Origin: a virus
Length of the DNA stretch: 49,592 nt
Strand: one strand, 5' to 3'
IMG/VR virus record: IMGVR_UViG_3300028883_000062
Location: 1 to 49,592 of that record
In this document: positions 17,826-39,240 of the stretch, piece by piece
Numbering within the stretch: position 1 is the stretch's first letter
Layout: each line of letters opens with the position of its first letter
Notes under the pieces: model-generated
Database searches by the model: none
Seen by the model: only the letters and a program-made list of their open reading frames with translations
What the model was told of the DNA's origin: nothing
Made by a program: the position numbers and the translations under genes

Positions 17826-18320
17826 TTACCAGGCGGTTATTGTTAGTTGCAGCCCAACGACATACATATCCGGGCCGCTCATTGGCAGTATATCACCACC
17901 GCCAAATAGCTGCATCCCGGCCACTTCGTATGCAAGGCCACATCGGATAACTCCGTTAATGCTGTTTTCTCCGGTATTGTCCAGAAATGTATAAATCCCG
18001 CTCCCGAGGCCGAGCGAAATAGGCATGAACGGCAAGGTCTTAAACCCGGTGGTCATAATGCGGATCGCCTGGATCTCGGTACCAGCCCCGAAAGGCCGAT
18101 CCGAATACAAGACATCTGCGATCGTTAAAACGCGGTAATTCGCGCTTGCAGGGGTAATTGTTGGTACATCAACCCCGGCTGCATAACAGATCTCGCCGGC
18201 ATAGCCGCTTTGCAGGAGCACGCCAGAACCGAAGCTGGCTAGCGCATCCATCGCCATACTCGAGGGCACAACCGCAAAAAGTAGTAGTAATGCCAGCATT
18301 ACAACTCGGATACGAATCAT
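17826..18320 (-). CDS. Outer-membrane beta-barrel-like protein
   Basis: This 164-residue protein has a Sec signal peptide (IRIRVVMLALLLLFAVVPSS, cleavage near SMA) and a mature part of about 140 residues with alternating hydrophobic strands and Gly-rich turns. It ends with the strand VGLQLTITAW. The final aromatic residue is the C-terminal signature recognised by the BAM complex in outer-membrane proteins. Length fits an eight-stranded barrel of OmpA/OmpX size. Phage-encoded barrels are unusual; they could block superinfection, modify the envelope or aid lysis. The start overlaps the holin stop (ATGA). It is the last gene of the late operon. Confidence 0.65.
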   Translation of the reverse strand: MIRIRVVMLALLLLFAVVPSSMAMDALASFGSGVLLQSGYAGEICYAAGVDVPTITPASANYRVLTIADVLYSDRPFGAGTEIQAIRIMTTGFKTLPFMPISLGLGSGIYTFLDNTGENSINGVIRCGLAYEVAGMQLFGGGDILPMSGPDMYVVGLQLTITAW

Positions 18321-18658
18321 TCTTTATTCCCCTTCCGAATATCGAGTATCGATTTACGTTTCTCTGTGTTTCGACCAAAGGATATGGTTTTGCCGAGGAT
18401 CGCAGCAACAAAAATCATACCCGCACCGGCAATCACACTTCCCCACCCCGCCTCCCCGAACCACAGATAGCTCGCTCCTGCGCTGAGAACCAGCGTGACA
18501 ATCAACGTCACGTTGCCCTCCATAGCCGCCTCGTCACCGGCGAGGGGAACCACGCGCGTTTTAATGAACTGGACCAAAAAGACGACCAGGGCAGCCGCTT
18601 GTGCTACCAAAATTGGATCGAGAGCAAATTTGTCCAGTAGCGGTGAAAGCACATCCAC
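18317..18658 (-). CDS. Putative holin
   Basis: This 113-residue protein has three candidate membrane spans (LVAQAAALVVFLVQFIKT, VTLIVTLVLSAGASYLW and VIAGAGMIFVAAILGKTI) and a charged C-terminal tail. Size, spans and position next to the endolysin-type gene fit a holin that forms inner-membrane lesions for lysis. The GTG at 18658 follows AAGGAGGTGATC, an unusually perfect complement to the 16S 3' end, which implies strong translation. An alternative is a general membrane protein. Confidence 0.7.
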   Translation of the reverse strand: MDVLSPLLDKFALDPILVAQAAALVVFLVQFIKTRVVPLAGDEAAMEGNVTLIVTLVLSAGASYLWFGEAGWGSVIAGAGMIFVAAILGKTISFGRNTEKRKSILDIRKGNKE

Positions 18659-18689: not shown

Positions 18690-19640
18690 CTACCGATAGG
18701 CTTCATCGGCATCGAGAACATTCAATGGATCCACCAATGTATCGACATAAAACCGCTTGACGGTCCCTCGTATCGGGTATGGGCCCACACGTGCCGTATA
18801 GGTCAACAGATAGTAGGCGCCATCCGGATTAACGAGAGTCGTCGGCGGGACATCAAAAGTCACCCGCCCACCGACGGGGCGAGCTTTCCACAGCTTCGGG
18901 ATGATTCCCCAACCGCCGTAGCTCATTGGTGGCCCCCCTATCAGCTTGAGCTGGAATTCGATATTGGCACGCGGTTCAAGCGCACCTCCGGAGACTACTC
19001 CGGAAGTCACATCGAAATACACCCGAACGTAATCGGCAATCGCCTGAGCTGGTCCGTCCAATGTTTCATACAACAACCAGGTCGTCGATGCACTAGTATC
19101 GTCACCAGCAAACCAGAGTAGATATAATTGATTGTCCCGATCTGTTCTGAGTGAAAAGGTTGTGTCGATTGGTAACGTAACCATCACCGTATCGGATATA
19201 GTGTACGTAGTGTCAATCGCCTCGCGGTCGCTGAGGATGATGGCAACCGAGTCGTAGTCCGGAGAGATCAAGGCAATCGGGTAATGTGTGGTCGTTACCG
19301 CTCCGCGCTGGTATAGGTAGTCGTCCCACCCGACACTACTATCAAGCCCGGTGAACCACACTCCGCGCACCTGCCAGTCGTATAGGTCGTCGAGCTCTAG
19401 ATCCAGCATTGCCGGCACGACAGACAAACTCTCCGAGGCCTGCACCCAGGTACCGAGCGAATCCCACAGCGTCACAACTCGAACGCTATCGTAGTCCGGA
19501 GAGGCAAACGGCATACTATGGATTACCGTACCACAACGCGCCAGGGGAGCCAGCAGTACCGCATTGAATAGCACCGTCAGGATCGCTACCAGAAAAAGCA
19601 CCCGCCAGACGTACCTACATGTTTCCGTCGATTGATTCAT
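18690..19640 (-). CDS. Hypothetical signal-anchored protein in lysis/fibre region
   Basis: This 316-residue protein has a hydrophobic N-terminal segment (VWRVLFLVAILTVLFNAVLL) that is more likely a signal anchor or long signal peptide, with a Cys at about 36. The rest is beta-rich with two similar blocks, ASPDYDSVRVVTLWDS and ISPDYDSVAIILSDRE. The C-terminal part looks like an immunoglobulin-like or fibre domain (YYLLTYTARVGPYPIRGTVK). It lies between the NlpC/P60 gene and the holin and overlaps the former by 26 bases. The role is not clear: virion appendage or envelope-acting protein. Confidence 0.55.
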   Translation of the reverse strand: MNQSTETCRYVWRVLFLVAILTVLFNAVLLAPLARCGTVIHSMPFASPDYDSVRVVTLWDSLGTWVQASESLSVVPAMLDLELDDLYDWQVRGVWFTGLDSSVGWDDYLYQRGAVTTTHYPIALISPDYDSVAIILSDREAIDTTYTISDTVMVTLPIDTTFSLRTDRDNQLYLLWFAGDDTSASTTWLLYETLDGPAQAIADYVRVYFDVTSGVVSGGALEPRANIEFQLKLIGGPPMSYGGWGIIPKLWKARPVGGRVTFDVPPTTLVNPDGAYYLLTYTARVGPYPIRGTVKRFYVDTLVDPLNVLDADEAYR

Positions 19641-20166
19641 TGTCTACTCCATCTGCGAAAGGATCCAATACTATCATCAAATCCCCTCGGTAATCGATTG
19701 GCCGAAAGTACACCCCGGCCCCTCGGCGTTTGGCTATTCTTACTGTTGTTGTCTGACTATTCCCACCCACAGCACCGATGCAGATCTCATTATTGACCGC
19801 AAGCATCACATGTGACGCATAATGTGAGTTACCGTAAAATATCAAACACCCAGGCAGGATATTTTTTTTCTCCCCGACTATGGGCCAGGGCTTCAATCTA
19901 AGCGTTTCGGCTGTCCAGTCACCATGTAGCGGTAGCTTTCCCATCTGTCGCAGCACGTACCGCACAAACCCCGAACAGTCGAGCCCCGGCTTTTTCTTGT
20001 CTGCCGGATCGTTGCCGCTCCAAATATACGGTGTGCCATAACACCGGATCCCGAGCTCAACGGCTATGTCGCGCGTCTGTATCATACCGCAAACCAGATC
20101 CAGAGTGATAGACATGCGATGCCAAGCAGGGACAGCCAAAAATGCGTCCGCGAAATACCTAACCAT
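19615..20166 (-). CDS. NlpC/P60-type peptidoglycan hydrolase (endolysin candidate)
   Basis: This 183-residue protein has the NlpC/P60 catalytic signature: GTPYIWSGNDPADKKKPGLD followed by CSGFVRYVL (Cys64) and YASHVMLAVNNE (His119). These enzymes cut peptide bonds in peptidoglycan stems. In phages they serve as endolysin or tail-associated lysin; the holin gene 957 bases downstream favours an endolysin. ATG 20166 is used here, but ATG 20085 (MIQTRDIAVELG) also begins exactly at the domain, so the first 27 residues are uncertain. Confidence 0.85.
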   Translation of the reverse strand: MVRYFADAFLAVPAWHRMSITLDLVCGMIQTRDIAVELGIRCYGTPYIWSGNDPADKKKPGLDCSGFVRYVLRQMGKLPLHGDWTAETLRLKPWPIVGEKKNILPGCLIFYGNSHYASHVMLAVNNEICIGAVGGNSQTTTVRIAKRRGAGVYFRPIDYRGDLMIVLDPFADGVDNESIDGNM

Positions 20167-20170
20167 TTTC

Positions 20171-22756
20171 TCATCGTACTACTCCATTTCCGATGCTGCC
20201 GCCTTTGAATTCACCCCCCTCACCACTGACAACGACCGCCGCCGTGAATTCCTCTATGTCTCCGATCGGATTCGAGGCCCCATTGGTATCATCATTTATC
20301 CAACCGCGAACGTAAATTGTGTAAGTCTCGGCCCCATCGATGCCGCCTACGTCAACGATCCAGCCCGCGCTGTCAGCAACGTAGCCAAAGGACGTGCCTC
20401 CGCTTGTGGTATCTGACATAGCCGAGGGGTAGCCCGAGGTGGACCAGGCCAGAACAATGATCGGATTATCGGCAAGCGTCTGGGTGTCGGTCGATAATGT
20501 AATCCTGAATGAATCCAACTCCGATCCGCCAGTGTAATCGTTATGTAGGCTATCCACGGTCAATGACAGCAAGGGATTAGTGGCCAGGTCAGCCGCAGTG
20601 AATGTAATGCTTGTGATCGACCTGTCAGAAACGTCGCCGGATGTGGCTCCGACTACCCACGCGGAGATATAGAGAGTATATGTCTCAGTGCCGTCAAAGG
20701 TAATGTTCGTTGTGATCGCACTGTCGGGGTAATAGGTAATCACCAAATCAGAGTCAGAGATGCTCGATGGATATGTGGTAGAGGACCACGCCAGTACAAT
20801 CGTTCCGTTGGATTCGAACGTTTGAGCCGTCGTAGTCGTCGTTACGGCAATGGTATCTACCGCACCATCGTTGTACACCGAATCAGCAGAGAACACCGAT
20901 AACTGATTCACTTCCTCGGCATCCCATGAGCCTGTCCCGGCAACGTCGAAATCTAAGGTGTCGACCTTGCTTGCTTCCGTCCATGTGATAGTCGTATCGA
21001 ATGATTGAACTGTACCAGCCGAATCAGAATCAAGCCACACCGTAACAGTGAATGGATTGAAGCTGGTGGAGTCAGCGCCATAGTATGCCTCGAACCAATA
21101 TGTGACCACCTGCTCTTTGAGCCCATTGGAGCCAGTCACACCGGACCATGTATTTCCATAGCTATCTTCTACGTGGACGTTGGCCCCAACGATCGCAGAG
21201 TCGTTATTCCCTCGGGCATAGACCTTGTAGGTTGAGGCCAACGAAATCTCATGCTCGTAACCGGAGCCCGGAGGGATACTGGTTATATCGATCGATGTAT
21301 CGCTAACGTCCGTCCCGAGGGCCATGTCAGTAAAGATATTGTCCACGTTTTGCCGGTTGGCCCGATCAAAGCGGTAGGTGTAATTCTTGTCGGGGTAGCC
21401 TGGCCCCCAATAGAGCGAACAGGCGACGGCATCAACTCCCCCTCCCGTCCCGTTATCAGTTCCAATCTCTATGATATTGTCACCGCCACCGATGTCGTTG
21501 TTTTGATATACGACCCCCTCTTGCGAGGCGCTACGCTGGAATGAGCACCCGGTACCATGTTGAAGCCCGGTATCGCTCATGGTGTAGACTTCAAAGATAT
21601 TATTCTCAACCGTCGTCCAGCCGCCGATCACATAGACAGGCGGTGTGTCTTGAGTCGAAACAGTATCAACCTGTGTAAATTCAATCTTACCACCATGACC
21701 GACCCTGCCACGATACGTTGTGCTACTATCAGAGTCCACATACACTCGGAAATAGTTGTTACGAATGACTACATATTTCGGCGCCGATCGAGTGAAGATG
21801 CCAAACCCCCAACCGCCGTTCGAGGCTTCATATCTATTCGGCCCGTTCCACACCTGGACATTATTATCGTAAATATAGATGCTGTCACCTTCAGACCCGA
21901 AACAGCGTTCGACAAAGATACCCTGGCCGCCTTCGTAGGTGGTGCCAGAGCGAATTATGTTGTCATGTATTCTCATCCCGCCGCGACCACCACGACAGGC
22001 GATAGCAAAGGGATCAACCGAGCTGGCACAGACGTTCCCCGGTGGACCTTCGGCCCCAGGATAGTACCAGTTATGAGCGTCGATTTCAAAGTAACACTCG
22101 TAGATGTGGGTTTTTCCACCCGCCTTAACGCCCGCATGTGGTGACACCAAGACGGAACACCGATACATAGTATAATGATAACCGGAATCCAGCGACGGTA
22201 ATGTTCCCTGCAAAAGCAGGGGCGAGCCAGTGTAGCCGCACCGATCACTATATCCCCATGTGTAGTTGTAGAAATTGCAGTTATCAAAAAGTACGTTTTT
22301 GGTCCCGCCGACAGTATAGACGTTATGCCCCTGGTACCCCCCTGTAATGAAATTGACATTCTCGAAGATCAAGTTATCGCCATCATCGAGATAGCAGTTA
22401 TTAGATCCCGTTTGTGATCCCGGGTTCCCCTGCGTGCCCGTGTCTACCGGGTTAGTGATCGAGATCGTAAGATCCTTTATGCGGCAGTGTTTATTCCCCC
22501 AGGAGATCCATAAACCTCTCCCTCCGGAGGCAGGAGTGAAGATAGTATCATCACCGCCACCATCCCCCGTAAATAGCACGCCAGTTGCATTGATCTTCAA
22601 AAAGGACGCGACCGATACGGTGCGGTTTCCACTCACGACGATAGTATCATAAGCGCTAGTCGTGTATGGCAGACTGAGAGTATCGAATTCGATGTACGCC
22701 CCGGATGCCAATGCGGGGAGCAAGAGCACAAACAGAAGCAAAAGTAGCTGTTTCAT
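20171..22756 (-). CDS. Exported beta-helix tail spike with Ig-like repeats
   Basis: This 861-residue protein starts with a strong signal peptide (KQLLLLLFVLLLPALASGA). Residues about 25-480 show a right-handed parallel beta-helix (repeated short hydrophobic strands and Asn/Gly turns, e.g. GGRGGMRIHDNIIRSG, GDSIYIYDNNVQVWNG) like depolymerase or adsorption spikes. Two similar Ig-like domains follow at about 620-725 and 730-840 (IVLAWSSTTYPSSISD versus IVLAWSTSGYPSAMSD). It has 11 cysteines, all in the beta-helix part. The ATG overlaps the preceding stop. An exported spike is not standard in phages and is part of the main finding. Confidence 0.8.
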   Translation of the reverse strand: MKQLLLLLFVLLLPALASGAYIEFDTLSLPYTTSAYDTIVVSGNRTVSVASFLKINATGVLFTGDGGGDDTIFTPASGGRGLWISWGNKHCRIKDLTISITNPVDTGTQGNPGSQTGSNNCYLDDGDNLIFENVNFITGGYQGHNVYTVGGTKNVLFDNCNFYNYTWGYSDRCGYTGSPLLLQGTLPSLDSGYHYTMYRCSVLVSPHAGVKAGGKTHIYECYFEIDAHNWYYPGAEGPPGNVCASSVDPFAIACRGGRGGMRIHDNIIRSGTTYEGGQGIFVERCFGSEGDSIYIYDNNVQVWNGPNRYEASNGGWGFGIFTRSAPKYVVIRNNYFRVYVDSDSSTTYRGRVGHGGKIEFTQVDTVSTQDTPPVYVIGGWTTVENNIFEVYTMSDTGLQHGTGCSFQRSASQEGVVYQNNDIGGGDNIIEIGTDNGTGGGVDAVACSLYWGPGYPDKNYTYRFDRANRQNVDNIFTDMALGTDVSDTSIDITSIPPGSGYEHEISLASTYKVYARGNNDSAIVGANVHVEDSYGNTWSGVTGSNGLKEQVVTYWFEAYYGADSTSFNPFTVTVWLDSDSAGTVQSFDTTITWTEASKVDTLDFDVAGTGSWDAEEVNQLSVFSADSVYNDGAVDTIAVTTTTTAQTFESNGTIVLAWSSTTYPSSISDSDLVITYYPDSAITTNITFDGTETYTLYISAWVVGATSGDVSDRSITSITFTAADLATNPLLSLTVDSLHNDYTGGSELDSFRITLSTDTQTLADNPIIVLAWSTSGYPSAMSDTTSGGTSFGYVADSAGWIVDVGGIDGAETYTIYVRGWINDDTNGASNPIGDIEEFTAAVVVSGEGGEFKGGSIGNGVVR

Positions 22757-23382
22757 TATTTAACCCCAATCACAAGCGTATCATCGGCTGACGGTGTTCC
22801 GATTACAACCGTATCGCCCTCCGATGGCGCACCAATCACCAACGTTTGCGCCTCGCCCGCAGTCGTCACCAAATATATTGCTGTCGTCATGTCTGCGACT
22901 GTCGCCGCGCCACTCCACGGATCGTCCCACGAAGAAAATGAACCAACAAAATCATACAATCGATTATCCCCGGCGCTATACCAGCGTTTGATTAGACAGC
23001 TATTGCTCGCGTGTACGGCAAGTAGGTATGTAGTGCTCGCAGAGAGCGTGACCCCGGTAAAAGGTAATGGTAGCCATGCCTGGTCCTCTGTCGGGCCATA
23101 ATCACCTTCAGCCGTAGAATCAATCAGGCTCGTATCTACCCCGGCCACCTCATAAAGCGCCATAGCGACGATTGTTGATGTGTTCGTGTCAAAATCGTAT
23201 GGCCAGAAGTAGCCCGAGTCAGCAATTTGATCTGTCCCGCCGATGGTAATTGGAATGGCATAGCGGTAGGACGAAATATCGCCGTTCGTGGCCCCGGTTC
23301 CACTGCTATCGGTTGTGCCATAAGTTTCGGCCAGAGCCGATCCAGCCAAAAGCACCATCGATAGAATTACAAGAATCTTCAT
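22756..23382 (-). CDS. Exported putative receptor-binding protein, paralog A
   Basis: This 208-residue protein has a signal peptide (MKILVILSMVLLAGSALA) and a beta-sandwich-like domain. It aligns with the next gene in order: IGGTDQIADSG vs IGATDQLPESI, DQAWLPLPF vs DRQWNWFDL, TYLLAVHAS vs TFLIAVAGD and SSWDDPWSG vs SSWEDPWSG. The C-terminus has a short triple repeat (LVIGAPSEGDT, VVIGTPSADDT, LVIGVK). Position between two spikes suggests receptor recognition or spike tip, but the function is inferred. AGGAGA precedes the ATG. Confidence 0.65.
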   Translation of the reverse strand: MKILVILSMVLLAGSALAETYGTTDSSGTGATNGDISSYRYAIPITIGGTDQIADSGYFWPYDFDTNTSTIVAMALYEVAGVDTSLIDSTAEGDYGPTEDQAWLPLPFTGVTLSASTTYLLAVHASNSCLIKRWYSAGDNRLYDFVGSFSSWDDPWSGAATVADMTTAIYLVTTAGEAQTLVIGAPSEGDTVVIGTPSADDTLVIGVK

Positions 23383-23383
23383 A

Positions 23384-24040
23384 TCATTCTCCTGTCGTGG
23401 CGATATTACCACCTTGTTCCGGATCGGCCCCTACGTTACCGGGACCGGTTGGGTCCATCCCCCAATAGGACACTACTGATTCTGCTGGCGGTTCGCCTCC
23501 TGCATCAGAAGTATGGAGTATCAGGGAAAATGTTTGTCCATCCGTAACCGATCCACCACTCCACGGATCTTCCCAACTCGAATAGTCAACCTTTCCCCCT
23601 TCCACACATATCGTTTTACCTGCAAGATCATTTCGCCGCATGAGGGCATCACCGTCGCCAGCGACAGCAATTAAAAAGGTGTCATTAGCCGTCAGGGTCG
23701 AATCAAGTTCGAGATCAAACCAATTCCACTGTCGGTCATCGGATGAACCATAAGATTGAGGAGCCGTGGTATCAAAGACAGTTGTGTCTGATCCGGTAAT
23801 GTGGTAGATACACATCTGCACACTGGTGGTCACATAGTAGTAATCAGCGCAGACAGCAATCGATTCTGGAAGCTGATCGGTGGCGCCGATGATAATACGC
23901 AGGCTTACCTGGTTTGCACAGAAATCAATACCGGCACCATTCACGCCGAGTCCGCCATAAATCATGTTCGTATCACCGTAAATGTCTGCCATCGCCGAGG
24001 TAGTTAGCAGCAGGATGAATAAGACCAGTAGGTAGCGCAT
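23384..24040 (-). CDS. Exported putative receptor-binding protein, paralog B
   Basis: This 218-residue protein is the paralog of the preceding-coordinate gene: signal peptide (RYLLVLFILLLTTSAMA), the same order of conserved blocks (IGATDQLPES, DRQWNWFDLELD, NDTFLIAVAGD, SSWEDPWSG) and a similar length. It has four Cys in the mature domain (FCANQ, AVCADYYY, QMCIYH, TICVEGG), whereas paralog A has only one, so disulfides are plausible. The C-terminus differs (PTGPGNVGADPEQGG). ATG 24040 with GGAGAT is preferred over the frame's earlier start at 24115. Confidence 0.65.
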   Translation of the reverse strand: MRYLLVLFILLLTTSAMADIYGDTNMIYGGLGVNGAGIDFCANQVSLRIIIGATDQLPESIAVCADYYYVTTSVQMCIYHITGSDTTVFDTTAPQSYGSSDDRQWNWFDLELDSTLTANDTFLIAVAGDGDALMRRNDLAGKTICVEGGKVDYSSWEDPWSGGSVTDGQTFSLILHTSDAGGEPPAESVVSYWGMDPTGPGNVGADPEQGGNIATTGE

Positions 24041-24044
24041 TGTA

Positions 24045-27000
24045 CTATCTCCACTTGCCCCACAGTTTCGCCCCGAACAACCAGACCCTATCGTTATCGT
24101 CGGCCAAGTTATCATAGAATTGTAACTTCATCCCCTGTCCGACATTCAGGTTGGCATCATACGCGATCGACACATGAGCCAGTGTCGTACTCGTCCTGGC
24201 AGTCGTGTTCGTAGTCGCCAGCGAATCACAGATAAACGGACTGCCGGTACCCTTCGAGAGCATAACCCGAACCGAGTCTATTGAGCCGTTGGTCAGATAG
24301 TCAAACGTGATCGAGTCAGCGTCGAAGTCATTGGTTAGGAACATGCCAACGTCAACGTAGTGTGTCTCTGTGCCCTCCCAGGTACTATCGACAAACAGCG
24401 CGAGGGTGTCCTGCGCATATTCAACGTGATACTGGACCCGGGAGCTGTCGGACCACGCATCCTTTCTGCCGTAAACCGTAGTAAACGGCAAGGCTTTCGA
24501 CTTCTGATAGTATTCCTTGACGGTCCCAAGAGTCGAGTACGCTGAATCTGCTTCAGTCGTTGTTGCATGGTACGCATCGATCAGGGCCGTCTTGTCGTCC
24601 AGTCCGATTTTGAACGGAACAGTTGCGCTCCCATCATCATTGACGATCTGGAATTCATCAGACGAGGTACCTGTGATTCTGAGCGTCCACTGTGTCGCGT
24701 CATTCTGAAGGCCAACGGATGAAAAGCCGTTCGTTTTTTGGCTCTGAAGTTGCAGGACAGCATCGCCAGTATCATCAAGTATCCAGGCATCAATGAGCGA
24801 GTGCATGGTGTCCATAGGACCGACTGCCAACTGGCTCACCAAGCCGGTGTCACCAAGCCCTACCTTCAGGTCCACCTCGGCCTGAGTCACATCAGTAACG
24901 ATAGTAACACTATCGCCGGCATCACTGTATGTCATGGTGGCTCCGGTCCCTGATATATTGAACATCGGGCCCGCCTTGTCTCGGACGGCTTCTGCGTTCG
25001 AGGATCCAGCGCTATCAGCGTAGGTGGCCGAGGCCGCCGAAGAATCCGAAACCTTAACGTCGATAGAGAGCGTTACACTATCGCCGCCATCGTCGTAGGT
25101 CATGCTCCCGCCTACACCAGTGATGTTGAACATAGTACCAGCTTTGTCACGGACATTCTCTGCCGCAGACGAGCCACAGGTATCAGCATAATCTGCTGAT
25201 GCCGCGTTGTCTGCTGTTGTAGCCGACGCCGCCGCAGAGTCAGACACCTTTACGTCGATAGCAAGGGTCAGAGAGTCGCCGCCATCATCATAGCCGAGGG
25301 TGCCACCTGTACCTGCTATGGGTAAGGTCGAGCCAAGAGAATCCATGACTTCTTCTACGGAACTGATACCACCACCGGAGCCGCCAGCCGCACCCCATGT
25401 CAACGTACCTGCACCATCGGTTGTTAGCTGGTATCCGTTAGTCCCTGAGTCCAGAGGGTAGTAATTACCGCCTATAACCACCGACCCGAGCATCTTCGTA
25501 ACGCCAGCGTTAGGCCCGCCAACCGTATCAGTCACGGTTGTTGCCATCTTGCATATATCGTGAAACCAGAAGAAGGAATTGTCGCCTTCTACGTGAGTCG
25601 TGCCGGCTTGAGCCCGAAACGTAATCGGCGTATCTATGAGAACCCAGGACACAGAGCTATCGTCGTGTTCCACGAACTCGCCGGTCCCACCGCCACCGCC
25701 AGCAAAATCACCACGGCGGTTTACGATAGAGTCCCACAGGTCCAGCGTGAGGAATTGACCAGTATCGGCCCACCGGATATATCCATCTGTTCCAATTACT
25801 ACCGAATCGAACGCGGATATACCGCCGCCAAGAGCATGAAATTCGTTGGCCGCGATCACTCCGTCAAAGTGAAACACACTATTTTGACCGGCGAATAATG
25901 TCGTATCTTTGTTCCCTGCGACAGTTAGGATTGTATCGTTATCAACAAAGCTGGCGCTACTATCGTCGTGAATGTTAAAGGCGCCACCCGTACCCGCCGC
26001 AGCAATCAGATCAGCCGCTTCCCCCTCGGTGCAAATTGCGGAGTCATACACCAGGCTAATCGTGGGCCCCCAATAGAGCATAGTTTGGACTGACACATAA
26101 TCTACGGCCCCACCGTCAATGCCTGTAAATGTGTCACACTCTATCGTAAAGCCATCCTGTCCCGTCAAGACCGGGTTTGCGTAAGCGCCCGGTGCCGGCT
26201 CAAGCCACATGGACGAGTAAACCGCTCCCCCTTCATACGCCTGGAACAAAAGGCTGTCGGCTCCACTGGTCGCAGTACGGATAGCATTTAGAATGACCGT
26301 ATCGTTGGAAGTTATCGGAAGGTATGTCTCAGCGATGTTGTTGCCCCCCGTGTCAGACCATGCCTGAGCCGCAACAGTAGTCGAATCAGCATGTTCAGCT
26401 CTCGCCGCTCCACCGCTCGCTGAGTCAGAGAGAGTCGCATGGGGAACCGTAATAGTCGTGATGGTGTCCATAATGCCCGGTACGTTATCCTCTATCTGCT
26501 CTTGAGCAATCGCCACTCCCGCCGCCGAGTCAATACCGGATCCTGCCGCCGCCGTAGCATCAGCCGACCAGGTAATAGTAGTGTCGCCACTTGATACGGT
26601 GAGCTTGGGGATATAGCCGCTCGAGGGTGTTCCAACAATCGGGAACCTTGCCAGTTCTTCATACGGGCTGGCCATATAGGAATTGTTTTTGAGTACCGTA
26701 TTCTTGAGGGCAAACGAGTCGATGGCCATGTTGTCTCGCCCATCCCGGTACAAACGCACATCGGTACGCCAGAGGACACCAGTATCAGCTATGCCGCCGG
26801 TCACATACCCGTCAATCTCCCTGTGAGTAAACCACCAATCTTCCGTCCCAGTCGAATCAAGTACGGCCTTCTGGTACCGCTTCGTGTTGTAAAAGGTATT
26901 GTCCCTCACGATACAACTGTCCGGAGCGGGCTCAGTCGTAGATTCGGTTACAGAATCCGCTTTTGGGGATCCGTCGCCGAGCTGAATAGCAGCATACGTT

Positions 27001-28142
27001 ATAGCCTCGTCCGGAGCCGCGGTGTCATAGACTTTGGTATCAAATACTGTGTTAGCGACGATCAATGATTTATCCGATAGCAATTCAACATGGATGCCAT
27101 CGTTGTTGTAGGTCGCCTCGGTGTATTGGTTGCCGGCCATGTTATTCGGACGGTTACAGTCCCACACGATGTTGTGGTCTATGATTGTGTTCGGAGCCGA
27201 CGCGATGTTGATACCGGAGTATCGGACATCGTGAATTCGGTTGTTCGTTATCGTGGTGTGGCGAATATCCTCGGTTGTCAAGGCATCCCTCCAAAGCAGG
27301 ATCCCCTGGCCACGACAGTTCCATATATCGTTATTCTCGATCGTATTGTACCAACTCGTATCCTCAATGCCAGTGAAGTTGAATTGACGGATCGAGATCC
27401 CTGACCCGACATCACCTGAATTGAGATCCCATGAAAGGTACGTATTGTCGCTACCGTAATCGATGTAGCCCGCTTCGTAGCTCTGGCAGTTCCGGATCGT
27501 GTTATACGATGCGTTGCTAATCATTATATTGTCGCGCTGGTTGTGGTGGACCTTGCAGTTCTGGATGATCGTGCGTTGCGTCTGACCGCCGCCAGTAGCC
27601 GGGTTCCCTATAACCTTGATCCCGTACTCGAATCCTGACACCTCAACGTCACTGATAATGACGTGATCGCATTTCATTACCACAATGCCATTAGCTCTGA
27701 ATTGCAGGTTCGCGACAAGGGCGAGCGAATCCGCATCACCGATGATATGCCCGCCTGTCCAGGTCACATACGATACAGAGTCAAACCACAAACCGTTTCG
27801 GCATGAATCATTCTGTGCTTCAATGGGGAAGTAGAGCTGTGCCCCATCTGCACACACAACAGTCAAGCGGCTCGTTATCTTCGTCAGCGTCGAATCAAAG
27901 AGAAATTTCCCCGGTGGTACGTAGACGGTGCCACCTTCGCCGGCAGCAGCGATCGCTAGCCCGAACGCCTGAATAGTTGCCGCGCCACTGGTGGAGTCGT
28001 TCTTCGCTCCGTAGTCCATGATGTTGTGCCACTGTTTCGCTTTGGCGTAGGACTTCGGGCTTTGCGGGGGAGGCGGGCTGCCAGCCATCAGAATAGACGC
28101 TGCCAGGGCGCATACAATAAATACTGCCACAAACCGTTTCAT
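24045..28142 (-). CDS. Exported pectate-lyase-like tail spike
   Basis: This 1365-residue protein has a signal peptide (KRFVAVFIVCALAASILMA) and then a Pectate_lyase_3 type beta-helix at about residues 35-470 (WHNIMDYGAKNDSTSGAATI, EGGTVYVPPGKFLFDS, many N-x-I-x-x-N rungs). Middle and C-terminal parts (about 500-1365) are Gly/Ser/Asp-rich repeats; three copies of a motif with YDDGGDSLTL, YDDGGDSVTL and YSDAGDSVTI lie near 945-1085, with conserved VRDKAGxMFNI after two of them. The C-terminus looks like a beta-sandwich. Likely a tail spike that binds or degrades surface polysaccharide. The signal peptide is unusual for a spike. Confidence 0.85.
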   Translation of the reverse strand: MKRFVAVFIVCALAASILMAGSPPPPQSPKSYAKAKQWHNIMDYGAKNDSTSGAATIQAFGLAIAAAGEGGTVYVPPGKFLFDSTLTKITSRLTVVCADGAQLYFPIEAQNDSCRNGLWFDSVSYVTWTGGHIIGDADSLALVANLQFRANGIVVMKCDHVIISDVEVSGFEYGIKVIGNPATGGGQTQRTIIQNCKVHHNQRDNIMISNASYNTIRNCQSYEAGYIDYGSDNTYLSWDLNSGDVGSGISIRQFNFTGIEDTSWYNTIENNDIWNCRGQGILLWRDALTTEDIRHTTITNNRIHDVRYSGINIASAPNTIIDHNIVWDCNRPNNMAGNQYTEATYNNDGIHVELLSDKSLIVANTVFDTKVYDTAAPDEAITYAAIQLGDGSPKADSVTESTTEPAPDSCIVRDNTFYNTKRYQKAVLDSTGTEDWWFTHREIDGYVTGGIADTGVLWRTDVRLYRDGRDNMAIDSFALKNTVLKNNSYMASPYEELARFPIVGTPSSGYIPKLTVSSGDTTITWSADATAAAGSGIDSAAGVAIAQEQIEDNVPGIMDTITTITVPHATLSDSASGGAARAEHADSTTVAAQAWSDTGGNNIAETYLPITSNDTVILNAIRTATSGADSLLFQAYEGGAVYSSMWLEPAPGAYANPVLTGQDGFTIECDTFTGIDGGAVDYVSVQTMLYWGPTISLVYDSAICTEGEAADLIAAAGTGGAFNIHDDSSASFVDNDTILTVAGNKDTTLFAGQNSVFHFDGVIAANEFHALGGGISAFDSVVIGTDGYIRWADTGQFLTLDLWDSIVNRRGDFAGGGGGTGEFVEHDDSSVSWVLIDTPITFRAQAGTTHVEGDNSFFWFHDICKMATTVTDTVGGPNAGVTKMLGSVVIGGNYYPLDSGTNGYQLTTDGAGTLTWGAAGGSGGGISSVEEVMDSLGSTLPIAGTGGTLGYDDGGDSLTLAIDVKVSDSAAASATTADNAASADYADTCGSSAAENVRDKAGTMFNITGVGGSMTYDDGGDSVTLSIDVKVSDSSAASATYADSAGSSNAEAVRDKAGPMFNISGTGATMTYSDAGDSVTIVTDVTQAEVDLKVGLGDTGLVSQLAVGPMDTMHSLIDAWILDDTGDAVLQLQSQKTNGFSSVGLQNDATQWTLRITGTSSDEFQIVNDDGSATVPFKIGLDDKTALIDAYHATTTEADSAYSTLGTVKEYYQKSKALPFTTVYGRKDAWSDSSRVQYHVEYAQDTLALFVDSTWEGTETHYVDVGMFLTNDFDADSITFDYLTNGSIDSVRVMLSKGTGSPFICDSLATTNTTARTSTTLAHVSIAYDANLNVGQGMKLQFYDNLADDNDRVWLFGAKLWGKWR

Positions 28143-28146
28143 TTTA

Positions 28147-28413
28147 TTACCTCGCTGAGTCAGGCAACGTTCCGAAGTGACGTTCCAGTCGCTTCAGGCT
28201 GCTCTGGATTTGCTTAAACTCCACGTCATAACGAACCAACTGCTTCTCAATCACAGCGATACGTACTTCGTGTTTCTCTATTATTGCGCTTTTCTCTGCG
28301 ACCTCACTTTTGATTATCGACCCGAGAATAGTGAGCAACAGCATTATGACCACACCCGATACGGCAAGCGCTCGGTCCTTCGTGATGAGATTACTGCCAG
28401 TTTCCTTTGCCAT
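28147..28413 (-). CDS. Small membrane coiled-coil protein (holin/spanin candidate)
   Basis: This 88-residue protein has an N-terminal membrane segment (LAVSGVVIMLLLTILGSII) followed by a coiled coil (EKSAIIEKHEVRIAVIEKQL, YDVEFKQIQSSLKRLERHFG). This shape fits an i-spanin or a small holin-like lysis protein, but no family is recognised. ATG 28413 is chosen; a GTG at 28428 overlaps the upstream stop and is possible. It lies between the internal virion protein and the first spike. Confidence 0.55.
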   Translation of the reverse strand: MAKETGSNLITKDRALAVSGVVIMLLLTILGSIIKSEVAEKSAIIEKHEVRIAVIEKQLVRYDVEFKQIQSSLKRLERHFGTLPDSAR

Positions 28414-28427
28414 AGTCGAGCACCCCA

Positions 28428-31400
28428 CTAATTGCCAATCTGATTCAATAATTGCTCTCTATCTTCTTCAGTTAAAGACCAGAAGAATAGCTGTCTCTGA
28501 GTTGCGCTTGTGCTTTCCCATTTATCGAGAAGTCTATTCCGATATTTCCACAGTCGGTCGCGCATCTGCTTCGGAGTCAGATTAAGATCCTTGTGCATCA
28601 ACATAAGCGCATCGGCAATACGTCCCTCGATAATAGCTGCGTCCACGTCCTCGTAGGTGGCCTGGCGGCCCGCCGCTCTTTGCTTTTTCCATCTATCGAG
28701 CGCTCGTCCGATGTCGCCGCCCGGGTACCCCTTCGAGGTGGGGAAACCAAAATTAGAAACAAGAGCGTTCCAATTACTGCGCTTCGCATCGAGTATGTTG
28801 TCAAGCACCTGAGTAACAGAGATCGGCGCAAAGGTACCTTCCACCCACGTCGTTACTTTGTCGATCGTGCTCTGCGGATCTTTATCTTCATCGATCTTCT
28901 GTCCGTATTCATCTTGCCCCTGAAGCACGCGAAATGTTGTGCTTATCATCGGTGCCACCTTACCATAGAATTTCTGGAAATCGCCCTTTGCGAGTGAATG
29001 AGCCATTCCCGGAACCTCAAATATGCTCTTGAACGGCGGGGCCCAGGCGGTCGTACCGTCTGGATTGTTGTACGGTAGCCTGACCAGGAATTTCATGTCC
29101 TCCGGATTCTGCCACATGAACTTGCCCTCGCCGTCCATGAATTTCGTCATTTGATAATTCCAGATATTCGAGGCGGTATATAGTCCTATCGCACCAGCCA
29201 GATACCAGCGATATTGTGTAGCGATCGGGTGAAGCGGATCCATGTGCATCTTTCGCCTGAGACTGTTCGGGGCAAGCGACTTGGTTGTCTCGTAGGCTAT
29301 GCGAATGTGAGATTCCTGCCACGTGGGAGAGATGAGGCCATACTGCCACGCCTTTCTCACTCCCTGACCGTACCAGAGTTTGATCGCTGTCTTGTTGCTC
29401 TCGAGCAGATTCATCTTATAGTCTGCGCCGGAGAACAAACCGTCTGCCATCTTCACGGCATCCCGATATGCGAGCTCCATGTTAAGGCCCTGTTCTCGGT
29501 ACTTTGGAGCGATTCGATCAAAGACCTTGTGTGCCATGTAGGTTTTCATCCCTGGGTGCAATACATCAAAGATGATATGTGACATCTTCCAAACCGGCCA
29601 CGTGATAATGTTGGCGGGAGTGTTATTGAATCGCAGCATGTCAACGGGTTTGAAGCCAATATCCGAATAAGCGTCAACCTTCAGTCCGTTTCGCATGAGT
29701 CCATGTGTGACCTCAGTAGGATGCTCGAGTATCTTCAGGCCCTTCGGTACCATAGTCAACGGATTCACGCGATTCGCGATTGCCTGGAACCCGAGCTGTA
29801 TCGGATGGAAGAAGCCAGCCAGCTTCGCGCCTTTAGAGAGATACATGAATCGACCGAAATTGGTAATCTGCGGTGATTTGTGATAGTTCTCCCACCACGG
29901 CATGATCTCTCTGAACACTCCAACCGGACCCTTCATTACTATCGTTTGTCCGTTATGGCCCTTAAACGTGATCGGTCGCTGTAAGAAGATGTTTTCCGTG
30001 TACTCGTAAAGATCCTGCAAACCAGCCTCGGTGATCTTATTCCACGGCTCGATAACGTTAGCATCCTCGAGCTTTACGCTCCCGGTATATCGATCCTTCC
30101 GGGGTATCTCGATGCCGCCGCCAATCTTCGTGCTGTGCAGCTCCGCGTAAAGGCGACGTGAGGCATTGGCAAGTTCCAGGTTGCGGTAGCCATTACCAAC
30201 GAGGGTGCCGAGATTGAGTGTCGCGGGAATCTTCCCTGCGGCCATCGCCTGTTCCATCGTTTCATATTTGCGTCGCATGAGCGCGGGCTGATTCTTTGCG
30301 AATTGACCGAATTGCGGATTGATAGGCTTCCCTGACACCGGATCCTGCCAGATATGGCGTAAATACACATGACCAGGTGGGCGCGTTTGCTTGTCGATTA
30401 AGCCTAATTGTAACCCGTAGTCCTCGAATTGTTTTGAGAATTCTCGGAACATGGTCACCACGCCCTTTTCTTTTGGTGTGAGGTTTCTCCAATACCTCGA
30501 GTTCGGGCCCTGCTCCATAGCGTGCGCCAGAGTGAGTTGCCGCTCCTGGGGTATCTTGAAATTCTCGAATTCTTTTGAAAGCAAGTATTCAATAGCGCCG
30601 GCATCGAGTACACGTTTGCGGTGACTCCACATCGACTTGACCGCGGCCTCAACATTGGACTGGATCTCTATTCGTTCCGGCGACTTCGCCAGTACCGCGT
30701 CAACGTACTCTTTTACATACTTGGCGTTGTTGTAGACTGTCCGGGCGAGCTGATGATAGGCTTCAGGCGTTCCGAGGGCGCCGAGGGAGACTGAGCCGTC
30801 GCCCTTCTCCACCATGTCAAAGAGCGAGCCCTGATTTTCAACAAGATCCCTGACACCTTCCTTCAGCTTTTCGATCTTGGCATCGATACGCTTAATTTCT
30901 TCGACCGACTCAACCTTTTTCCGGAGCTCTCGCAGTTCATCGATCTGTTTGACAATCCAGCCGGTGTCCTGCCTGGATCTAGTACCCTCGTTGATCGGGG
31001 CTTTCGTAAATTTGAGCGGAGCGTTCTTGTCGAAGGCTATGTCTGTTACCTGGCGCTCGATTTTCGCCTCAAACTCACCGGCTTTGAGCTTCCACATGTC
31101 CTGCTCTCGATAGAGAACATCGAATAGCTGTTTCTCATGGTAATTCGTGATCTGCGGGAAGTCTTTTCTCAGGTTTCCTACCATCTTGGCCTTGATCTCG
31201 AAGTACGGCACATTGTCGCGGAGCGCTTCAGGCTGTTTCAGTATGTCTACAAATATACCTTTGGGGTCCAGATAGGTATAGGACTCGAGCTTCGGTACTC
31301 GATCTTTGCCGAACGAGTCTGTCAACTGCTGCTTTGTTTTCTTCTGGTCTTTGGCGATCCTGAAGGCTTCGATGTCCTCCCCGATCGTTTCTCGGGTCGC

Positions 31401-34400
31401 GCTACGGTTCGCCTCAACTTTTGCGTGGTAGACCGCTTCTTCGAGTGTGCCCTCGAAGTATTTTACCGGGACTTCATCGATCCCTATGCGTTTCAGGGCT
31501 TCATATCGGCTATGTCCAGAGAGCAGGTATGTCTGTCCGTCCTTCGGATCTTTCCAGACAATAAGGTCGTCCAGCTTCCCGGGGTCGAAATCATTGACTA
31601 TTCGCTCTACTGACTCCTCAGAGAATTCCTGCTTGCGGTTCTGGAACCGTTCGGGATCCAGCTTTATGTCGGATCGCTTCAGGATGATTCGTTCTTTAGC
31701 GAATGTTTTACTGGCGACAGGTTTGGTCCCACCGTCAGCCTTTCCGGATTCAGGTTCGGGTTGAACATCGGCCGGTTTGGGTTCTTCAGCCGGTTTCTCG
31801 GCGGGCTTGGGTGCTTCCTCTTTAGGAGCTGGCTTTTCTTCAGCCGCAGGCTTTTCTTCGGCAGGTTTCGATCGCTCAACGGGTTTAGCCTCCTTTGTCA
31901 CTGTCTCGGGCGGTTTGGTGACTACTTTCAGTTCTCCCTTATTCGCTCCCTCGAGCATCTTCACTTCGTAGAACGTCTTTCCGGAAATCTCCTGCGAGTT
32001 ACCAGTGTACTCTGCCTTGTCGCCCTTCACATAGACCTCGTTTGGCCCTGTCTGGAATTCCTCTGCAATCGGCGTAGGCTCCATCACATCTTCAACCTTC
32101 GGGCGTTCTTTCGGCTTCGGCTTCGGCGCTGCCGGTGTAGGTTCGACCACTTCAACATTCTCGACACTCCGCTTGGCATCCTCGAGGGCTTCCAGATCTC
32201 GAAGTAGGCGAGCCTGCAAGTTGTCTACTGTTGCCTGTAACGCCACCTGTTCGGGCTTAGAATACGCGACCATCACTTCTTCCAGCTCAGCGATATTATT
32301 TTCGATTGTTGGAATCGTTTCCTCGAGCTTGCGGATCTGCTCATTTCGACGATCGAGTTCGCGCTGTGACACCTTTTCGGGCGGCCCTGTCGGTTTTTTG
32401 GGCTCAGGAGCGCGCTCGGGAGCCATAGCGGGCGTTTCGGGCGGCGCCACGTCTGTCGGGATAGCTTCGGCCTTCGGCGGCTTCTTGGCCTTCCCAGGGG
32501 CCTCTGGCGGGGTCTGCGGTGTCGGCGGCTTCGGAGCCGGGGCGACTGGTTCCGGAGGCTCGGGCCATTGGTCGGGCGGTAGATCTTCGCGCGCTTCTTT
32601 CAGGCGACCGTTTATCTCTGCTATTTCGAGCTGATTGGCTCCTTCCGACTGCTTCAAGGTCTGTGCCCGGGCCTCTAAATGCTGTACGCGGCGTTTTTTG
32701 TCGCCGTATTGCAGTTCATCGAGCTTGACTTGCTCTTTCGCATCGAGCTCTCGTTCCAGTTTGCGAAGCTGTTCGGCGTAGACGTGCGGGACCAACTCAC
32801 CATAGAGCAGCCCTTCCTTTGCGCGCCTCGAGGCACCTGCAAGGTCTGTCGCTTCCATGTCCGGACGCATCCGGAGGATCTCAGCATCGATGGCTTTCGG
32901 ATCCATACGCGAAATCATGTCGCGCAGATCCTTCATAGCCACATCAGGCGGCGGGACAATGCCCTGCTCCTGTCGGGCCAGTTCATCGAGTAATAGGCGC
33001 TTGCCGGCTGGCGACTTCCGAATTTCCTCGAGGCTCTTTTGGGCCTCGGCCTCGTTCTTGAGTTCCCGTTCGATAGCCTTTGCCGACTGTTCAGCCGGTC
33101 CGAGCTTCTTCGGTGGCTGTTCCGGATAAGACCGATTGGCCTCCTGCATGAGCTGTTCTTGCCGCTTCAGATCTTCCTTCAGCAATCGAGCACCTTCAGG
33201 TGATTGGCGTAGCTGTGTTTGCCTGGCCTCGGCATCCAACATCGCCCTGGCTGATTGCTTCGCGGGTCCGGCTGGCGGTTTAGGCGGGTTTAAGGCCTCC
33301 TGTTGGCGTAAGTCCTCAGCGAGCAAGCGGGCACCTTCCGGTGACTGTCGTAATCTTTGTTCCCGGGCCTCGTACTCGGCGATAGCTGCGGCTGATTCCT
33401 CGGCAGACTTTTCTACTGCGCGCCGTGACTGTTCCTCTAGTTCGATCTCCCGGGCCTTGTATTCAGCTTCCCGGGCGGCCTGGTCAACCTTGTCCTTGCG
33501 TGCCTGTTCTTTGGCTGCATCCATAGCACGCTGTTCTTCGGCGAACCGTTGAAGCTCCTGCTCTGCTACTGAGTAACTTTTCTTTTTGCCCCGACTCAGC
33601 TTTGCCGCTCCACCCATAGCCATTCCCGCAAGCATGGCTACACCAAATGGGTTCTTCAACAACTCTTTTTGAGCATTCTCAATTTGTTTTGTGTTCGCAT
33701 ATTCCAGACGAAAGCCTTTGGTAATAGAAAATTCTGGATCAACACCTGCGGCTTCCAGTAATAGCGTTGTTTCTTCGAGAGGAAACTTCAACATGCCAAC
33801 AGCAAATTCATACGGGTTCTGGATAAAGCTCGCCATCAGCTCGGGAGCGATGCGGATAGCACCAGAAATGAAGTTCCGCGCAAAAATAGTTCCATCAGAA
33901 AGCGGGTATTCCCGGTCCTCATACTGGCCGGTTTCCTCGTTCCAGACCGATACCGTTTCGGTGGCGCCAGGCTCAATAACACCTAGCCCGAGTTCCTTAA
34001 ACCCCTCGTCAACTAGTTCGGTTAGCTGTTCCTTCGGCAGAATCGGCTTCAGAGGGTGTGTCTCGCCCACACCTTCAGCAACGTATTTATCCAGTTTTTT
34101 CAGGTTGTACATGGCGGCCTGATAAAACTGATCGATAAAGGGATCAGCTAGATCTACCGCACCTTTCCTGATGGCCTCCCCGTACAGGTCGCGCAACATA
34201 GAAAATATGCCGTTACTCTCGGAGCTCTCGGCTTGAGTCAATAACTCCGGAGGCAGAATACCGACTTCTACTGCCTGCTCTATCTGCTTCTGCTGTTGCG
34301 GATTTAGCGCTTGCGGCCCGCGCGTCTGCACCGTTTTGACCATAGCCCGGAATTCCGGTGTATTCGCATACGTGTGCTCTGGCTCCACCGGAGGAAGGGG

Positions 34401-36118: not shown

Positions 36119-36511
36119 CTATTCACCCTCCACACGGTAATTGATCGTGGCCGTATCGCTCCGCACCGAGGACCGGACGACAAAGCGTGTGCCACTTCGA
36201 GGAATAACCGTGTACGTGTTGGTGTTATTTGTGTCGAGACTCCATGCGAGCCCTCGATAAGAAGTGCTGTCCAGAAAGGACACGTCCTGCTTCTGGTCAA
36301 CGGTCGACGTATTTAGCGTAACAGAGCCCCAACCATACGACAGCTTGACGGTTCCTGCGACTTGGTGCCAGCCCTTTGCTGTCTCTGACTGGTTGATCGG
36401 TCTACCGTCAGGGCCGTAGATCGTTTTGATTTTCCCTTCAACTTGTTCGTCCTGGGCGAACGTGAACGCCGCAACCGAACAGAGTAACAGCACCAAGAGA
36501 AGATGCTTCAT
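36119..36511 (-). CDS. Small exported tail-region protein
   Basis: This 130-residue protein has a clear signal peptide (MKHLLLVLLLCSVAAFTFA, cleaved before QDEQ) and a beta-rich mature part (VKLSYGWGSVTLNTSTVDQK, TRFVVRSSVRSDTATINYRV). Its ATG overlaps the nozzle gene's stop (TAATG) and follows GGGAGG. It may be a tail accessory protein; no family is recognised. Confidence 0.6.
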   Translation of the reverse strand: MKHLLLVLLLCSVAAFTFAQDEQVEGKIKTIYGPDGRPINQSETAKGWHQVAGTVKLSYGWGSVTLNTSTVDQKQDVSFLDSTSYRGLAWSLDTNNTNTYTVIPRSGTRFVVRSSVRSDTATINYRVEGE

Positions 36512-39240
36512 TACTGCCTCCCCTGATCCCACGGCACGAAGCCAATGTTATAGCCCTTAATAGTATAGTCGCCTCGCCCATTATCAGTGATTTTAACTGA
36601 AAGGTTGTCGACTATGCGATCGATCGGAACGCGATCAACATTGTGATCGGTGAAGTCTGGCACGAATGTATGTGTAAGAACCGCCACCGGAGTCGATTGC
36701 GGCCCGTAGTTTTCATAGAAGGTCAATGTCACCGTATCGGCCTCTCCGGATCCGTACAAGTCGAAATAGAGCGCCTTGACGCGCCCCTGGCTTTCGAAGA
36801 AGTATTTAGACTGGTATGTCGCTATGATAGTATCTTTGCCATCGAGGGTATCAGTCGCACCCCCGATCCACTGGTACATCGTATCGTTCGTGCCGGCCAG
36901 AACCCACTGCTCCGATCGCACGTCTGCCCTGGCGGTATCGATGTCGAACAAAAGCGCATCACGAAACCCAAAATCGTAGCAGCTCCAATGAGGTCTGATT
37001 TCCTCGGAATAGACGTAGGTTTTCCAACTACTGTCAGTAATGGGTAATGACAGCCAGTACTGGCCATTAACGACCGCTCCAACCGCCCGTTGTCGCCTGT
37101 CCTCGAGGGAGTCAATAGTCAGGTCGATCGGCAAGGACAGCCGTTGCTGGAAGTTACCGAATTTGTATGCTCCCATGTGATCGAGAAAGTATAGTCCGGT
37201 TCGTCCTTCGGCCAGACTAGCGGGAGCCGCGAGCCCCACAGAATTACTCACAGGCTGCAAGTTGTACTGATACAGATTGGCGCCTGTCAGAGAGTAAATG
37301 CTATTCTGCCTGAAGATCAGTAGTGTATTGCTGACCGGCCACAAAGCATTGATCCAGTCGCCGGTTTGCGTCGGGAGCAATAAAAACTTGTCCTCGTCCC
37401 ACGTCCCAGGCCGATTGAAGTCCGAATAATAGAGGCGGTTCGGGTAGGTCTGGTATCCTGCGGCATAAATCCGCGAATTGAAATAAGCGATTGTTCTCGG
37501 CTGAAACTCAATAGCAGAATCATCATAGCAGAACATCACCGGGTCGTCGATCAGGTTCGTATCGTCGCACCATACCTCCCCGGGAATGGAATCGTAGGGC
37601 ATCGAGTCACTATACGATGTCTGCCCCGGTTCCAGTGTATCGAGAATGACCCAGTTCTTGAGGTACGCCTGGTCAACGCTGCTCTCCACCTTGATTGTGT
37701 CGTAGGTCGGGTAATTGGGAGAGCCATAGGTGAAGTCACCCCCGGGCTCGAGGTGAAAGATCTCAAAGTAATTCCCGGCGTAGTTAGTCGAACAAACCAC
37801 TTCCTCTTGCAGCTCAACGGCGGCATTAAGATCCTGCACCCAATACTTAATCAGGCTATCAATCTCAGCCTCGGCGCTACTCGATGGGTAATAACCGACG
37901 GTCGTGGAGTTGACGGTATATTGGTGCTCCTGAAAACCATAGCTCGGCTTCTTTGTGATCGTTACCCTGACCACCTTACCCTGTGAGTTACTAGTGAATT
38001 CGCCGAAGCATCCCCGTAATAGGATCTTCCGGGCGATCGATTGCGTGTCGATCGGGACCGGAATACTATCGAGGTCATACCCGACGCGATCAGCTCCGAA
38101 TAAACGCATCTGATTTCGATAGAGCGCGCGACAGGCGGCGGGCCCGGCATAACTGCGTCTGCCGGCTGAATCCTCGAATACCACCGAGTAGCCGATCTTG
38201 ACGCATTGTGTATCAGTGATTCCCTGAATGTTGCTGAACACGCCATAGGGCGAGCTCGCAGCGTTCCATGAGGCATAAATACACCCGGGAGGGTACGGTG
38301 TTGGGTCTGCTGCCGCAGAATCACAGTCACCATAGGCGCAGTTGAAGTAATCGCCCCAATCATACGTTCGCGCGGAATCGATAACGGCGTAGCCGGTGTC
38401 AACGAATGTGCCAAGATTCACGCCGATCATGTTGATTGCGGTTATCGGGTAGTATGAGCCGCCGTCAACACTGCGATAGATCAGGGCCTTACTGTTTGTC
38501 TCGGAATGAGTGTACGCCGGGTTCGGTCCGATCCGATCAACGTAGATTGCGCTCCCGTTGACATAGAGGGGCCAGGTCGGGAGCGACAGGTTGGTGGTGT
38601 CGCCTCCGGTCGTGATCCATGCGTATTTGTACGTGTACGTGCCAAAGAGCACGCCACCTGAGTCGATAGGGATAGATCTAGGCTGATTGGGTCCGAGCGG
38701 TCGCACCGGTGCGGTTGTGGAGCCGTTATAGGTCATAAGCTCGGATCCGTATAGCCCAACAACAAGGTCGTTATTTACGGTAATAGATTGCAGATTAGCG
38801 CCGACTACGGGGTTCACGCTCGGGAGGTACATTAGCAACTCAGGAGTCAGTGTAGTAGTACAGGCGGGAATGGCGGGGTCGGCAAGCCGCATGGTCGCGA
38901 GGCCACTGTCTGCGATCCCGTTCGATGTGATTCCGGATAACTCGCGCAACACTAGTAGGCGCTTCCCATCTACCTGCTGATAGGCTATTAGTCCATGAGC
39001 TCGCACACCCGCCACTGTGTCGGCATAATAGTAGCGCAACCCCGGTCGGCGCTTCAGGCCGCCTTTAGTAACTCGATAGTTATCGAGTACCAGAGCTTGA
39101 TTGTCCTGCATCAATGCGTTCGTCAGTGAATTGACCAGGCCACCACTGAAATCAAAAACGCTTTTCTCTTGGATCCCCTGTCCCATCGCTGGCAGAGCAA
39201 GGATGAACAGAAGGAGTAATATAGCCGCTATCTTTTTCAT
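36511..39240 (-). CDS. Tail nozzle / tubular protein B-like, with signal peptide
   Basis: This 909-residue protein resembles the T7 gp12-type or phage-stabilisation nozzle: FSGGLVNSLTNALMQDNQAL, then VTKGGLKRRPGLRYY, a beta-propeller-like middle and a domain with RIYAAGYQTYPNRLYYSDFN and FRQNSIYSLTG. Its mature part is preceded by a clear signal peptide (MKKIAAILLLLFILALPAMG, cleaved before QGIQ), which is unexpected for this family. It has 11 cysteines, including a CAYGDCDS pair. The ATG overlaps the previous stop (ATGA). Role: distal tail tube forming the exit for DNA. Confidence 0.8.
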   Translation of the reverse strand: MKKIAAILLLLFILALPAMGQGIQEKSVFDFSGGLVNSLTNALMQDNQALVLDNYRVTKGGLKRRPGLRYYYADTVAGVRAHGLIAYQQVDGKRLLVLRELSGITSNGIADSGLATMRLADPAIPACTTTLTPELLMYLPSVNPVVGANLQSITVNNDLVVGLYGSELMTYNGSTTAPVRPLGPNQPRSIPIDSGGVLFGTYTYKYAWITTGGDTTNLSLPTWPLYVNGSAIYVDRIGPNPAYTHSETNSKALIYRSVDGGSYYPITAINMIGVNLGTFVDTGYAVIDSARTYDWGDYFNCAYGDCDSAAADPTPYPPGCIYASWNAASSPYGVFSNIQGITDTQCVKIGYSVVFEDSAGRRSYAGPAACRALYRNQMRLFGADRVGYDLDSIPVPIDTQSIARKILLRGCFGEFTSNSQGKVVRVTITKKPSYGFQEHQYTVNSTTVGYYPSSSAEAEIDSLIKYWVQDLNAAVELQEEVVCSTNYAGNYFEIFHLEPGGDFTYGSPNYPTYDTIKVESSVDQAYLKNWVILDTLEPGQTSYSDSMPYDSIPGEVWCDDTNLIDDPVMFCYDDSAIEFQPRTIAYFNSRIYAAGYQTYPNRLYYSDFNRPGTWDEDKFLLLPTQTGDWINALWPVSNTLLIFRQNSIYSLTGANLYQYNLQPVSNSVGLAAPASLAEGRTGLYFLDHMGAYKFGNFQQRLSLPIDLTIDSLEDRRQRAVGAVVNGQYWLSLPITDSSWKTYVYSEEIRPHWSCYDFGFRDALLFDIDTARADVRSEQWVLAGTNDTMYQWIGGATDTLDGKDTIIATYQSKYFFESQGRVKALYFDLYGSGEADTVTLTFYENYGPQSTPVAVLTHTFVPDFTDHNVDRVPIDRIVDNLSVKITDNGRGDYTIKGYNIGFVPWDQGRQ

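Follow-up and report, generated by a model that had tools for sequence, protein, structure and literature searches.

An exported late protein coupled to a holin-like gene as a possible third lysis protein in a phage of probable Zixibacteriota hosts

Outer-membrane proteins encoded by phages are known, among them lambda Lom and PA-2 Lc, and the lambdoid Lc/NmpC porin gene adjoins the lysis genes. Lambdoid Lom and PA-2 Lc/NmpC have been proposed to mask or alter the receptor and thereby block superinfection. The gene analyzed here, P0001, lies at 17826-18320 on the minus strand of a 49.6-kb virus record, the whole of which was analyzed and is called the window, and encodes a small exported protein beside a holin-like gene. 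If P0001 is an outer-membrane barrel, it would count as a variant within a known class, since phage-encoded proteins of that location have already been described.

The late minus-strand block of the window begins with the terminase at 48.3 kb and ends at 17.8 kb, with P0001 as its last gene. The open frame of 164 aa begins at an ATG at 18320, preceded by the Shine-Dalgarno-like GGAAGGGG, and, with the remaining late genes of the window as training set, codon statistics favor this frame at +0.157 per codon, against -0.12 to -0.47 in the five other frames. The ATG lies on the TGA of a 113-aa holin-like gene (18317-18658, minus strand), forming an ATGA overlap. The upstream product, with hydrophobic segments and a charged C-terminus, matches no Pfam or PHROG family and is called holin-like from its size, hydrophobic segments, and position. 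Both the P0001 gene and its coupling to this neighbor are real. The N-terminus, MIRIRVVMLALLLLFAVVPSSMA followed by MDALA, is positively charged and leucine-rich and ends in SSMA, a textbook Sec (SPI) signal peptide covering residues 1-23 and leaving a mature part of about 141 aa, in which no helix-like hydrophobic segment occurs (maximum KD-19 = 1.21). P0001 is thus very probably exported, and the sequence-only reading, which had proposed a last late gene with a signal peptide and translational coupling to a holin, was correct on these points, the coupled gene being holin-like.

Upstream of the holin-like gene, the minus strand encodes a late tail-region protein with an N-terminal hydrophobic segment (18690-19640) and an NlpC/P60 hydrolase (19615-20166; PF00877, E 3e-11; phrog_329), a probable endolysin or tail lysin. 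P0001 is therefore adjacent to and coupled with a holin-like gene and near a hydrolase gene, and it probably belongs to the lysis cassette. The best single reading makes P0001 a third lysis protein, exported late and directed at the outer membrane, because of the order hydrolase, holin-like gene, and coupled exported gene, and because no recognizable lipoprotein spanin was found at the lysis genes of the window or its relative G001, where a scan returned no candidate signal-peptidase-II lipoprotein of the Rz1 kind. The probability of this full statement is put at roughly 35%, while a lysis function of whatever form falls a little short of even odds. We infer the beta fold, the outer-membrane location, and the action at lysis. 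According to this reading, a podophage-like virus of a probable diderm Zixibacteriota host would carry a cassette of cell-wall hydrolase, holin-like protein, and exported small beta protein. P0001 would be translated by coupling to the holin-like gene and exported by Sec late in infection with loss of its signal peptide. Its site of action would then be the periplasm or the outer membrane, and it would most likely be a small beta-structured protein that weakens the latter at lysis. Among the functions originally suggested, envelope lysis fits the position of P0001 best, while superinfection blocking and receptor change have no specific support.

Comparison with related phages bears directly on this reading. 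A degenerate terminase motif identified G001 (IMGVR_UViG_3300009528_000003, 52.1 kb), which has the same gene order as the window and shares 57% identity in the major capsid protein (MCP), 44% in the portal, and 42% in the terminase; a terminase pattern with too many fixed bases gave no match, and a portal motif search returned unrelated phages and was set aside. The aligned MCPs of the window and G001 led to a 4.2-kb phage contig in a Zixibacteriota metagenome-assembled genome, or MAG (L040; MCP 50%, portal 39%). In G001, the last three genes of the late block encode a holin-like protein and two exported proteins, the first of 96 aa and the final one, P0007, of 179 aa. A homologue of P0007, P0011 (30-33%, E 2e-13), is encoded in a second Zixibacteriota MAG (G070, contig C211, 3,968 bp; L060/L065), where the order is tail protein, lipoprotein, M15 peptidase, 97-aa holin-like protein, ATGA, and exported 175-aa P0011. 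The ATG of P0011 overlaps the holin-like stop exactly as in the window, so that the arrangement around P0001 recurs in L060. The tail protein of this contig, upstream of the cassette, is homologous to the G001 homologue of the window protein at 18690-19640 (29%, E 2e-25 between window and G001). At the cassette's end, these three phages conserve position and organization, not sequence. Because two MAGs of one phylum hold related contigs, the diderm Zixibacteriota are probably the host group, with the qualification that short MAG contigs can be binning errors. The lipoprotein of the second MAG contig (L060:242-625; lipobox LAAC), situated beside the endolysin, carries the dockerin-like calcium-binding repeats DINLDGDLDITD and DVDQDGDVDVDD and has no Pfam match.

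The counterparts in the relatives are more barrel-like than P0001 itself. P0011 resembles outer-membrane proteins (OMPs) in its alternation (z +2.46, reached by 1.6% of shuffles), GRAVY of -0.24, and aromatic content of 15%. Measured against shuffles, alternation is strongest in P0011, followed by P0007 (p 0.08) and P0001 (p 0.26), with a combined p of about 0.014, and the same alternation marks the terminal strand of all three proteins (YVVGLQLTI in P0001, WQIKLGVAF in P0007, and IGAKLGLHI in P0011). The presence of an exported, more barrel-like protein in the position of P0001 in two related phages argues for the lysis reading; against it, P0001 is not detectably homologous to either, such homology having been rejected by BLAST, hhalign, and shuffles. 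The lipoprotein of L065 adjoins the endolysin, and outer-membrane disruption in that phage may therefore have another agent.

Searches for other relatives of P0001 were likewise negative. No family match was found in Pfam, PHROGs, or NCBIfam, phrog_25985 being discarded as a chance match at 12.8 bits, and no relative was found in the PDB, in IMG/VR, or in prokaryote genome contigs. Against phages, tblastn gave matches only at E about 0.8, and the 132 genomes of the Zixibacteriota phylum gave six matches at E 0.03-0.07 per genome, as chance predicts. The homology to OmpX/OmpA or phage exclusion proteins for which a search had been suggested was thus not detected in Pfam, NCBIfam, the PDB, or the phage collections.

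The proposal that P0001 is an outer-membrane barrel was examined by structure prediction, composition, and strand phase. Single-sequence AlphaFold, applied to the suggested eight-stranded barrel, produced pLDDT values of 38 for the full protein and 33 for the mature part, both models containing only a C-terminal three-stranded meander. A beta-rich mature protein is accordingly plausible from the sequence, with the AlphaFold models uninformative on the point. The terminal aromatic residue proposed to be used by BAM is W164, which is indeed last but does not share the phase of the hydrophobic residues in the final strand. Counted from the end, the hydrophobic residues are A2, I4, L6, L8, and V10, with W1 in phase with T3, T5, Q7, and G9, opposite to the C-terminal phase of OmpX, OmpW, PagP, and OmpT; P0001 therefore lacks a C-terminal beta-signal with its aromatic end in phase with hydrophobic residues at positions 3, 5, and 7. 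The mature part has a GRAVY of +0.49, compared with -0.16 to -0.78 in five E. coli OMPs, is less aromatic than these five barrels, and contains two cysteines in strand-like segments. Its dyad alternation is z +0.6 (p = 0.26 against shuffles), in a weak test where known OMPs range from +0.6 (PagP) to +3.3. Because the alternation scores of PagP and OmpX are little better, a barrel keeps somewhat less than an even chance, and the evidence for it from sequence is weak. The interpretation retains an exported late protein beside lysis genes, and loses ground through the missing homologue, the lack of a confident model, and a strand phase and composition unlike those of small OMPs.

The main rival is that P0001 is a virion or tail-associated protein, exported and joining the particle outside the cytoplasm like other signal-bearing tail proteins. 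Eight genes of the tail and lysis block, all on the minus strand, carry a Sec signal peptide with a Shine-Dalgarno sequence, and seven of these are not P0001. They encode a 297-aa adaptor-like protein (39237-40130), whose G001 homologue starts with a hydrophobic signal-like segment; a 909-aa tail protein of the 'phage stabilization' kind (36511-39240), conserved in G001; a small tail-block protein (36119-36532; G001 homologue 51%); a 1365-aa beta-helix tailspike-like protein (24045-28142); a 243-aa frame (23384-24115) and a 218-aa frame (22756-23412), with signal peptides from internal ATGs at codons 26 and 11, respectively; and an 861-aa probable tail appendage (20171-22756), beta-helix-like by eye and without a family match. 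None of the head genes of the window has a Sec signal peptide. Signal peptides are also present in the G001 homologues of 36511, 36119, and 22756 and in the fiber gene that G001 has in the 24045 position, the 22756 counterpart being a weak match (32016-32558; E 0.001). Signal-peptide ORFs number 19 of 117 in the window and G001, against 5 of 274 in six more distant phages (p = 4e-7), as counted by a home-made rule rather than SignalP and with some early genes included; this conserved pattern, nearly absent from the comparison phages, favors the virion reading. The stabilization protein of MW202701 starts without a signal peptide.

Since the signal peptide, the chief argument for an OMP, is common to eight genes, tail proteins among them, an outer-membrane location does not follow from it alone, nor does export imply lysis. 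The position of P0001, after the hydrolase and holin-like genes and coupled to the latter, is nevertheless the usual place of a lysis gene, and the protein is small, has no repeat or spike-like features, and matches no virion family, so that a virion protein is the less likely reading, at around one chance in four. Two observations concern neighboring genes of the tail block. The two adjoining genes at 22756-24115 are paralogue-like by eye and are possible tail-tip or carbohydrate-binding modules. A 93-aa protein encoded at 28147-28428, with one membrane segment, a coiled coil, and a weak holin/anti-holin PHROG match, has a similar counterpart at G001 26639-26995.

The window virus appears to export its tail proteins, an unexpected trait in a tailed phage. 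No clear precedent for tail proteins with signal peptides was found in the literature searched, and the word 'signal' is absent from the main text of the crassvirus structure paper (PMC10172136). A clear signal peptide, MALKIWLTLALLLWPLSAWA, is also carried by a 669-aa protein of an unrelated phage contig (G005, L051:3019-5028); exported phage proteins therefore occur elsewhere. It is conceivable, though improbable, that the adaptor, stabilization/nozzle, and spike proteins of this clade are exported by Sec and that tail assembly finishes outside the cytoplasm, with P0001, P0007, and P0011 serving as an outer-membrane platform or exit linking tail maturation with lysis. Tail and adaptor proteins with conserved Sec signals contradict the standard picture of cytoplasmic tail assembly and are a greater anomaly than P0001, and this module of exported tail proteins merits a study of its own.

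That P0001 is a soluble periplasmic beta protein of unrelated function, such as a beta-sandwich in which the two cysteines form a disulfide, and an orphan at the operon end, is an unlikely explanation: the cysteines in strand-like segments, the lack of a BAM-type signal, and the composition unlike OMPs are consistent with it, but the hydrophobicity of P0001 is high for such a protein and its counterparts in the same place are barrel-like. Least probable is an outer-membrane barrel that would mask or alter the receptor and block superinfection, for although P0001 is exported, small, and beta-like, with barrel-like counterparts in relatives, its late lysis-block position argues against early expression and would delay its synthesis beyond the point at which it could protect the cell, no integrase or repressor match was found among the window ORFs scanned, and the lysogenic relative G001 offers a better candidate in P0010. 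P0010 (G001 38648-38998, minus strand; L038:18648-18998) has 116 aa, is exported, and matches OMP_b-brl weakly, its 17.2 bits falling below the cut-off. Its gene is flanked by an integrase-like gene at 37509-38573 and an XRE-repressor-like gene at 39164-39577, both named from reading their translations, and is a candidate lysogenic-conversion or superinfection gene.

Compared with known systems, P0001 resembles the OmpX/Ail/lambda Lom group (Ail_Lom, OMP_b-brl) in its Sec signal peptide, mature size of about 141 aa, Gly-rich strand-like segments, and phage origin, and differs in having no Pfam match, an out-of-phase C-terminal strand, a GRAVY of +0.49, and two cysteines. With Lc/NmpC it shares the placement of an exported protein gene beside the lysis cassette; unlike that porin, it is far smaller and has no Porin family match, and its outer-membrane location is putative. 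Like the spanins (Rz/Rz1 and u-spanin), it comes third in a lysis cassette and would have the outer membrane as its target, whereas it lacks a lipobox, a coiled coil, and, in its mature part, a transmembrane helix. Should the outer membrane prove to be the target of P0001 and its counterparts, phages of an uncultured diderm phylum would have a third lysis gene that is not a spanin. Those counterparts, P0007 of G001 and P0011 of L060/L065, are more charged, more aromatic, and more OMP-like than P0001 and have no detectable sequence similarity to it, yet all three are small, strand-rich, carry a signal peptide, and are encoded by the last gene of a late cassette.
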